Position numbers and translations under genes: made by a program. Positions 5,559 to 7,652 of a stretch of DNA of 64,000 nucleotides are shown here, one piece after another; the stretch's first letter is position 1; every line of letters starts with the position of its first letter. This stretch comes from Afipia sp. (GTDB lineage: Bacteria; Pseudomonadota; Alphaproteobacteria; Rhizobiales; Xanthobacteraceae), in the NCBI GenBank assembly GCA_017308495.1, contig JAFKES010000069.1, positions 1 through 64,000 of the forward strand, written 5' to 3'. Under the pieces are notes generated by a model, which saw only the letters and a program-made list of their open reading frames with translations, did not search any database and was not told where the DNA came from.

Positions 5559-5873
5559 TCACGTCACCACTTTGAGGCCGACGATCCCGGCGACAATCAG
5601 CCCGATGCAGGCGAGGCGCAGCGCGGTGGCGGGCTCACCCAAAAGCCAGATGCCGAGCAGGGCGGTTCCCACCGTGCCGATGCCGGTCCAGATCGCATAG
5701 GCGGTGCCGACCGGCAGGGTCTTCAGCGCCAGCCCGAGCAGGATCACGCTGGCGATCATGCTGGTGAGGGTGAGGACCGAGGGAACGAGGCGGGTGAATC
5801 CGTCGGTGTATTTCAGGCCGATGGCCCAGCCGATTTCCATCAGGCCGGCGATCAGCAGCAGCGTCCATGCCAT
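5559..5873 (-). CDS. gdx: Gdx/SugE guanidinium exporter (SMR family)
   Basis: 104 residues with four membrane helices, the standard size of a small multidrug resistance dimer subunit. The Gdx subfamily is indicated by [14 protein letters not shown] and by Glu13, Trp16, Ser42, Tyr59 and Trp62, which match the guanidinium-binding residues known in SugE/Gdx transporters. By family it exchanges guanidinium for protons across the inner membrane. The ATG is set by homology and an AGGAG 7-10 bases upstream. The leader contains two ACGG-loop hairpins (see riboswitch), which independently supports guanidine rather than drugs as substrate. An in-frame extension further upstream runs antisense to prfC and is spurious. 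Confidence 0.93.
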
Positions 5874-5880
5874 GGCGAAA

Positions 5881-5938
5881 CATCTCCTGGCAGGGCCGTC
5901 CCTGCGAATGTGGGGGGAAGCGCGAGGCCGTCCTCGCG
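5881..5938 (-). promoter_or_regulatory. Guanidine-II (mini-ykkC) riboswitch
   Basis: On the minus strand the leader of the SMR gene folds into two hairpins: a 7-base stem CGCGAGG/CCTCGCG with loop ACGG (5938-5921), then a 15-base linker, then a 6-base stem GCAGGG/CCCTGC with loop ACGG (5905-5890). The second hairpin is followed after two bases by AGGAG, the ribosome binding site. Tandem hairpins with ACGR tetraloops next to the Shine-Dalgarno define guanidine-II riboswitches; guanidine-bound loops dimerise and free the ribosome binding site. The downstream gene is a Gdx exporter, the expected target. Confidence 0.9.
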
Positions 5939-6032
5939 GTCGAATTATGCCCCGGTGGGGCGAGGGATGCCAGCCGTCGCCGGTCATGGCTCCCTTGATC
6001 CCGCCGCGTTTCCCTGCCAAACGCTCGCCACC

Positions 6033-7652
6033 ATGACCGACACCGCCATCACCGCCGAATCCCTCGCGCGTGCGCCCCTCGCCGAGGAGGTCGCCCGCCG
6101 CCGCACCTTCGCGATCATCTCCCATCCCGACGCCGGCAAGACCACCCTGACCGAGAAGCTGCTGCTGTTCGGCGGCGCCATCAATCTCGCCGGGCAGGTC
6201 AAGGCCAAGGGCGAGCGCCGCAACACCCGCTCGGACTGGATGAAGATCGAGCGCGAGCGCGGCATCTCGGTGGTCACCTCGGTGATGACCTTCGAGTTCG
6301 AGGGGCTGGTGTTCAACCTGCTCGACACGCCGGGCCACGAGGACTTCTCCGAGGACACCTACCGCACGCTGACGGCGGTGGACTCCGCGGTCATGGTCAT
6401 CGACGCCGCCAAGGGCATCGAGGCGCGCACCCGCAAGCTGTTCGAGGTCTGCCGCCTGCGCGACATTCCCATCATCACCTTCATCAACAAGATGGACCGC
6501 GAGAGCCGCGACCCGTTCGACCTGATGGACGAGATCGAGAAGACGCTGGCGCTCGACACCACGCCGATGACCTGGCCGGTGGGGCGCGGCCGCGATTTTC
6601 TCGGCACCTACGATATTGCCACCGGCGGCATCCGCCTGCTGGAGGGTGGCGGCGCCAAGACCGGGCAGGCCGAGCAGATCGCCATCTCCGATCTCGCCGC
6701 GCGGCACCCCAGTCTCGACGCCGCGGCGGTGGAGGAGGAACTGGCACTGGTCTCCGAGGCCTGCCAGCCGTTCGACCTCGAAGCCTTCCGCGAGGGCCAT
6801 CTGACGCCGGTGTTCTTCGGCTCGGCGCTGCGCAATTTCGGCGTCGGCGACCTGCTCGAAGGTCTTGGCCGCTACGCGCCGCCGCCGCGCGCGCAGGAGG
6901 CCGACAAGCGCAAGGTCGAGGCCGCCGATCCACGGATGAGCGCCTTCGTGTTCAAGATCCAGGCCAACATGGATCCCAACCACCGCGACCGCATCGCCTT
7001 CGCGCGCCTGTGCTCGGGCAAGCTGACCCGCGGCATGAAGGCCAAGCTGGTGCGCACCGGCAAGAACATGAGCCTGTCGTCGCCGCAGTTCTTCTTCGCG
7101 CAGGACCGCGCGATCGCCGACGAGGCCTATGCGGGCGACGTGGTCGGCATTCCGAACCACGGCACGCTGCGCATCGGCGATACGCTGACCGAGGGCGAGG
7201 AGCTGACCTTCGTCGGCGTGCCGTCCTTCGCGCCGGAAATCCTGCGCCGCGTCCGCCTCACCGATGCGATGAAGGCGAAGAAGCTCAAGGAAGCCCTGCA
7301 GCAGATGTCGGAGGAGGGCGTCGTGCAGGTGTTCCGGCCGCGTGACGGCGCGCCGGCGCTGGTCGGCGTGGTCGGCATGCTGCAGCTCGACGTGCTGAAA
7401 GCGCGACTGGACGCCGAATACGCCCTGCCGGTGGAATTCGAGATCTGCGAATATGCGCTGGCGCGCTGGATCTCGTCGGACGACCGCAAGAAGCTCGATA
7501 CTTTTGTCGCGGCCAACAATTCCGGGGTCGCCGACGACGTCGACGGCGATCCGGTGTTCCTCGCCAAGAATCAGTTCTATCTCGACTACACCCGCGAGCG
7601 CGCCGAGGGCATCGTCTTCTCCAGCGTCAAGGACGTGAAGAAGAAGCATTGA
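6033..7652 (+). CDS. prfC: Peptide chain release factor 3 (RF3)
   Basis: 539 residues, normal for RF3 (about 530). The GTPase motifs are complete: [15 protein letters not shown] (G1), [14 protein letters not shown] (switch I), [16 protein letters not shown] (G3) and FINKMDRE (G4), followed by domains II and III. RF3 is the GTPase that recycles RF1/RF2 from the ribosome after termination. The ATG opening [12 protein letters not shown] is chosen; upstream in-frame codons encode a low-complexity extension with no family similarity. The gene is divergent from gdx, with the riboswitch lying in the shared 159-base gap. Confidence 0.95.

Follow-up and report, generated by a model that had tools for sequence, protein, structure and literature searches.

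A guanidine-II riboswitch upstream of a Gdx-type exporter gene in Afipia, with a predicted contest between the P2 hairpin and the gene start

In Afipia sp. (GCA_017308495.1, contig JAFKES010000069.1, positions 1–64,000; this 64-kb stretch is the window, and all coordinates for this locus refer to it), a small SMR gene is preceded by two hairpins that end just before its ribosome-binding site. This arrangement raises the question of whether the leader is a guanidine-sensing RNA that controls a guanidinium exporter and, if so, which part of the transcript hides the gene start when guanidine is absent. The protein and the aptamer bear on the first half of the question. The second half is addressed by folding predictions for this leader and for the leaders of its relatives.

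The gene, gdx (sugE), occupies 5559..5873 on the minus strand, stop codon included, and encodes a 104-aa protein of the guanidinium exporter type. The product matches PF00893 and scores 139.1 bits against NF008512, the SugE equivalog of NCBIfam (cut-off 126), while the other 20 SMR models listed fall below their cut-offs. Its best solved relative is Gdx-Clo (PDB 6wk5, E 8.6e-32). Residues 13, 16, 42, 59 and 62 are E, W, S, Y and W, and residues 64–66 are GIG. The sequence-only reading of this DNA had named Glu13, Ser42, Tyr59 and Trp62; all four are present, and W16 is present as well. Length, E13, W16, S42, Y59, W62 and the TM3 G-x-G are common to Gdx-Clo and the Afipia protein, with no notable difference between them. 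In the available text of two papers, W62, S42 and W16 of Gdx-Clo hold the central glutamates (PMC7695847; PMC9574504), and the first of these describes W16 as conserved in Gdx and replaced by glycine or alanine in Qac proteins (PMC7695847). The gdx product is the one PF00893 match in the genome, which is 97.36% complete, and gdx is classed as a singleton (homodimer type), not as one of a pair of SMR genes. Three congeners that have this type of leader encode proteins 83–90% identical to the Afipia protein over 103–104 aa.

Two further gdx loci depart from this simple pattern. One congener (G065) contains a second gdx that is 55% identical (L115, 3479–3790). RF01068 has a match below the cut-off (31.6 bits) some 1 kb upstream of this second gene, and inverted repeats that contain ACGR stand directly before its ATG; the two-hairpin finder rejected these repeats as a pair. 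At another locus (L027, 1575–2932) the gdx match is split in two, with about 1 kb between the parts as though an insertion had broken the gene, and this split gdx stands downstream of a guanidine-II leader that scores over the Rfam cut-off.

The leader of the Afipia gene matches the guanidine-II (mini-ykkC) aptamer family RF01068 at 5891..5939 on the minus strand, scoring 42.6 bits where 32 is the gathering score (E 4e-5 in a search of the 64-kb window). This is the only Rfam match over the gathering score in the window and the sole RF01068 match in the whole genome. A relaxed Rfam scan of 1.5 kb around the aptamer returns five other matches, all of them weak and far under their family cut-offs. 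The P1 hairpin (5921..5938, minus strand) reads CGCGAGG-ACGG-CCTCGCG, with 7 bp and its ACGG loop at 5931–5928. The P2 hairpin (5890..5905, minus strand) reads GCAGGG-ACGG-CCCTGC, with 6 bp and its ACGG loop at 5899–5896. Both are thus capped by loops of the ACGR type, whose C and G could pair loop to loop. Between them lies the linker (5906..5920, minus strand), which is predicted to capture the P2 5' strand in some ligand-free folds. The Shine-Dalgarno sequence AGGAG (5884..5888, minus strand) follows P2 after 1 base and stands 10 bases from the gdx ATG (5873); P2 itself ends 16 bases from the ATG. The 50-nt aptamer alone folds as P1 and P2 (z -2.35), and 5 of 200 shuffled sequences fold equally well.

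By sequence and structure model, the gdx leader is a guanidine-II riboswitch that sits before a guanidine exporter-type gene. RF01068, NF008512 and the Gdx-Clo match together support the sequence-only reading, which had placed a guanidine-II riboswitch before a Gdx-type exporter. Its description of two ACGG-tetraloop hairpins in the SMR leader, the second of them at the AGGAG ribosome-binding site, agrees with the loops and the 1-base spacing given above, and the refutation that it had named, the lack of a mini-ykkC covariance hit, is absent. The span that it had given, 5559..5938, covers the gene and the leader but leaves the promoter outside, with its -10 box at 5949–5944. The assignment of riboswitch and exporter is sound and is an ordinary case of a known kind. 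It is not a novel interpretation, as SMR genes that adjoin guanidine riboswitches are already established in print (PMC7695847, PMC9574504, as far as the accessible text of each goes). The same reading had argued that the RNA makes a generic annotation specific. We agree, because the NCBIfam family name for NF008512 remains 'quaternary ammonium compound efflux SMR transporter SugE' and the RNA sharpens it.

Two genes flank the switch and lie outside it. A gene for a PitA-like phosphate transporter (PHO4; PF01384; 4512..5522, plus strand) is the convergent neighbour, and prfC, for peptide chain release factor 3 (NF001964, 736.6 bits; 6033..7652, plus strand), is the divergent neighbour. In each of the three congeners examined (L113, L114 and L116), gdx likewise lies between these two genes. 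Among the best 80 of 571 relatives, at loci that extend no more than 2.5 kb to either side of gdx, prfC is a neighbour of gdx in 12 and both genes are neighbours in 10. A 696-aa antisense frame on the minus strand (5559–7649), which runs through prfC into the gdx frame, is taken as a GC-rich chance frame.

A promoter scan finds one sigma-70-like site, CTGGCA-18-CATAAT, at 5973–5944, with 0.0 expected in shuffles. It consists of a -35-like box, CTGGCA (5968..5973), a spacer of 18 and a -10 box, CATAAT (5944..5949), all on the minus strand. With its -10 box beginning 18 nt ahead of the P1 loop, the promoter is predicted to start transcription at about 5937, in the first bases of P1. A related pattern recurs in other leaders. 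The set for this comparison contains 72 leaders (E. coli left out) minus 7 with too little upstream sequence. YATA lies 17–21 nt before the P1 loop in 36 of these 65 leaders, the Afipia leader included. A control window 60 nt upstream of that position has it in 1 of 65, and shuffled sequences have it in 314 of 3250. The test is partly post hoc, because the pattern was picked after looking at the leaders. A strict TATAAT signal before P1 is weak (at least 4 of 6 positions in 13/65 leaders vs 9/65 in the control; at least 5 of 6 in 8 vs 0), and the looser YATA pattern is clear. Judging from the -10 box, the gdx mRNA would begin at about the first base of P1. A transcript that starts there has almost no upstream RNA left to act as an anti-Shine-Dalgarno. 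This makes it unlikely that, in this lineage, an anti-Shine-Dalgarno lies 5' of P1 as it does in the Pseudomonas model. When the start is moved 25 nt further up, the 5' flank joins the pairing, with a mean of 1.62 pairs. Transcription termination was rejected as a mechanism, since the scan finds no terminator-like site between P2 and the ATG.

The predicted structure of the Afipia leader depends on how much of the gene is included. In a length ladder, that is, the equilibrium (non-kinetic) folding of growing leader lengths with coding bases included, P1 has a probability of 0.99 at every length. The probability of P2 is 0.99 up to +3, 0.48 at +5, 0.07 at +6 and 0.004 at +9, so that P2 is lost once codon 2 is added. 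P2 is lost on lengthening because its CCUGCC pairs with GGCAUGG of the start and because the Shine-Dalgarno AGG pairs with bases at the AUG. The resulting OFF hairpin (5865..5894, minus strand; predicted) joins the P2 3' strand and the Shine-Dalgarno with the start codon and codons 2–3. Because the P2 3' strand pairs with the ribosome-binding site and codons 1–3, P2 and an open start are predicted to be mutually exclusive with the hairpin formed from them. These folding results rest on one energy model. The ladder and the null tests on the Afipia leader use the core stems; in the runs across relatives, the finder extended the Afipia P1 and P2 by a few bases past the core, across a mismatch.

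The cost of opening the start region, defined as the end of P2 to +6, is about 11.5 kcal/mol in the free fold and 7.3 kcal/mol with P1 and P2 enforced, a gain of 4.2. The gain lies between 2.7 and 5.1 kcal/mol over 25–37 C, 12–60 nt of coding length and the region sizes tried. When the tail from P2 to the ATG is shuffled, 1 of 300 sequences gains 4.2 or more. The same gain is seen in 12 of 300 sequences with a shuffled codon region, in 27 of 300 with a shuffled linker, in 26 of 300 that were recoded synonymously, and in 5 of 40 that carry starts drawn from eight other genes. The stability of the full 95-nt leader is not unusual (z -0.08).

These models suggest that the leader is a translational ON switch of the guanidine-II class for gdx, and that it probably works through a contest for P2 between the aptamer and the gene start. 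P1 and P2 would fold first as the RNA lengthens. Once codons 2–3 are added, in RNA free of guanidine, the P2 3' strand would pair with the Shine-Dalgarno region, the start codon and codons 2–3, and the start would be hidden. Published work on the family suggests that guanidinium in both ACGG loops would cause the loops to kiss and would stabilise P2. A stable P2 would free the start region and the exporter would be made, which would then likely remove guanidinium in exchange for protons. The predicted direction is that of the class, which promotes translation according to the available text of PMC7544219 and PMC9561414.

The element is common in the leaders of related genes. Among the gdx leaders of the best 80 of 571 confirmed candidates, the two-hairpin finder detects paired ACGR hairpins in 61; it detects them in none of 1427 random 200-nt windows drawn from these loci and in none of 1600 shuffled leaders. 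RF01068 is over its cut-off in 32 of the same best 80 of 571, and all 32 are among the 61 finder-positive leaders. In a wider set, the finder is positive for 71 of 90 leaders. The unbiased figure is 61/80, because the wider set includes 9 loci chosen for their RF01068 match, and E. coli. One locus (L020) was left out of the leader set as it lies on the same contig as L038. Two loci, L033 (upstream of 418) and L045 (upstream of 2501), keep the pit-gdx-prfC order and have no two-hairpin leader. The element can therefore be lost, and both are natural losses of the switch beside a close gdx.

Leaders of the Rhizobium/Sinorhizobium type (L053, L065, L066, L083–L085, L088, L089, L092, L099 and L101–L103) have a short P1, for example GCAG-ACGA-CTGC, and often an extra hairpin-like stretch in the linker. 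They fall under the Rfam gathering score and are likely an under-annotated subgroup of guanidine-II.

The set for comparing predicted switching contains 71 leaders, Afipia and E. coli K-12 included, and 42 after dereplication; relatedness inflates the leader counts. The mean start-opening gain over the 71 leaders is 2.4 kcal/mol, compared with 0.2 for shuffled tails and 1.1 when tails and starts are swapped between relatives. The gain is above 2 kcal/mol in 39 of 71 leaders and below -1 in 5 of 71, where P1 and P2 make the site harder to open. Among dereplicated leaders, 21 of 42 have a gain above 2 kcal/mol; the corresponding shares are 10% for shuffles and 24% for swaps. Pairing between the start region and P2 (at least 1.5 expected pairs) is predicted in 53 of 71 leaders and 30 of 42 dereplicated leaders, compared with 30% of shuffles and 51% of swaps. 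By an earlier metric, pairs between P2 and downstream RNA are above each null's mean in 50–59 of 71 leaders. The P2 energy cost is above the null means in only 37–52 of 71, and the lowest count, 37, is that against synonymous recoding. Across relatives, then, folding predicts that formation of P1 and P2 eases the opening of the start site, and does so more often than in shuffles.

The loss of P2 with coding length is seen in part of the set. P2 has a probability above 0.5 at +3 in 41 of 73 leaders, and 20 of these 41 drop below 0.2 by +12, compared with 15% when the codons of other genes are used and 27% with shuffled codons. In 26 of 73 leaders P2 is already below 0.2 at +3. Close relatives also vary. 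Of three congeneric relatives, only L024 clearly agrees (gain 3.1). L113 keeps P2, with a probability of 0.74 at +30 (gain 1.6), and L114 has no start-site relief (7.0 in the free fold and 10.3 with P1 and P2). Among loci with the same gene order, L035 has relief (5.6) and L041 and L068 have none (-0.3 and 0.1).

Co-evolution of the P2-side and start-side arms was examined by an arm-swap permutation on leaders with suitable spacing, 58 of 72, which dereplication reduced to 45. The mean pairing energy is -8.67 kcal/mol for a leader's own arms and -8.32 kcal/mol for swapped arms, and 425 of 5000 permutations are as good, which is not significant. For this reason only an ensemble effect is claimed, and no conserved helix.

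The published mechanism differs in where it places the hiding strand. In the model drawn for E. coli sugE, an anti-Shine-Dalgarno within the linker covers the ribosome-binding site until kissing of the two loops draws the linker off (PMC9300104, PMC9094411, in the available text of both). In the same text of the second source, a simulation at high Mg2+ shows P2 coming apart and base-pairing with the linker (PMC9094411). The Afipia leader does contain a four-pair match, UUCC/GGAG, between linker and Shine-Dalgarno, and linker shuffling lowers the mean predicted gain to 1.75 from the native 4.2, so that the linker matters too. The predicted ensemble, however, contains 0.00 expected pairs between linker and start region. 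Nor is this pairing enriched across the 71 leaders, where the mean is 1.22 pairs compared with 1.51 and 1.81 in the nulls, and where at least 1.5 pairs are present in 14 of 71 leaders compared with 27% of shuffles and 35% of swaps. On these predictions the linker mechanism is doubtful for the Afipia leader, with perhaps a minority share of the probability.

It is improbable that P2 acts mainly by its position, with the docked P1-P2 complex itself altering ribosome access and no alternative hairpin. P2 does end 1 base before AGGAG, close relatives also show a very short spacing between P2 and the Shine-Dalgarno, and P2 is still above 0.5 at +30 in 14 of 73 leaders. Docking beside the Shine-Dalgarno would rather block the ribosome, though, the opposite of the effect known for the class, and the tuned tail (1/300 shuffles) would be left unexplained. 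That the hairpins are relics that no longer regulate, or that the protein transports mainly a quaternary ammonium compound instead of guanidinium, is very improbable: the leaderless loci with conserved gene order and the NCBIfam name point that way, and the intact loops and stems over the Rfam cut-off, the presence of W16 and the high protein identity in the three congeners with the same leader type all point against it.

The contest between P2 and the gene start has counterparts and contrasts among known switches. The E. coli gdx/sugE element (RF01068) has the same parts, namely two GC-rich ACGR hairpins, a short linker, gdx directly after and a Shine-Dalgarno just downstream. It differs in that the Afipia transcript is predicted to start at P1 and in that the Afipia platform is predicted to set the P2 3' strand against the ribosome-binding site and codons 1–3, instead of the linker against the Shine-Dalgarno. 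The guanidine-II element of Pseudomonas aeruginosa is likewise a translational switch with P1 and P2, but in the available text of PMC9561414, a study by RelE assay, a P0 helix made from the 5' and 3' flanks is proposed to hide the Shine-Dalgarno, and almost no RNA is predicted 5' of P1 in Afipia. In the add-type purine riboswitch, a ligand-free hairpin over the RBS and AUG is replaced on ligand binding, as is predicted here, although its aptamer and ligand are unrelated to guanidine-II; the same source, in its accessible part, describes guanidine-II in general as holding the RBS stably within the apo aptamer domain until ligand releases it (PMC10907184). A literature search, from which the original family papers were missing, returned no account of codons 1–3 as the switching strand of a guanidine-II element, and absence from print is not claimed.

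The rest of the genome offers little other guanidine-related context. No guanidine-I or guanidine-III elements were found in the genome, and guanidine-IV has no match over its cut-off within the 64-kb window. A search of the genome for urea carboxylase returns 16 matches, none over the cut-off, and a TIGR03425-related protein (L125; contig C151, 2708–3295) scores 180.3 bits against a cut-off of 205.95. Since both kinds of match are below their cut-offs, no riboswitch-linked route of guanidine degradation is shown. Within the same bacterial family, RF01068 is found in 52 of 119 genomes at E ≤0.001 and over its cut-off in 49 of 119. Among the 30 loci kept from this search, gdx lies beside the RNA in 10 (tblastn) and not in 20. 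Of these 20, one (L008) precedes something else and 19 precede genes of 268–285 or 238 aa (L003–L005, L007, L009–L012, L014, L015, L017–L019, L022, L023, L026 and L028–L030), which we take to encode urea-amidolyase-associated proteins.

For the lineage as a whole, a tentative proposal is that Afipia and many of its alphaproteobacterial relatives may have their own guanidine-II expression platform. In it, the RNA would begin at P1, and the ribosome-binding site and codons 1–3 (Met-Ala/Ser-Trp) would be the strand that invades P2, in place of the linker/anti-Shine-Dalgarno model. Such a platform matters because the existing models for hiding the start already differ, with the linker in E. coli and the P0 helix in Pseudomonas. 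The contest between P2 and the gene start is the part of the finding that is worth a bench test, in which synonymous changes in two codons should break the switch. For the organism, a generic multidrug or quaternary-ammonium annotation becomes a specific and testable one, guanidinium homeostasis under RNA control. If the proposed platform is true, part of the exporter's coding sequence would be a working half of its riboswitch.
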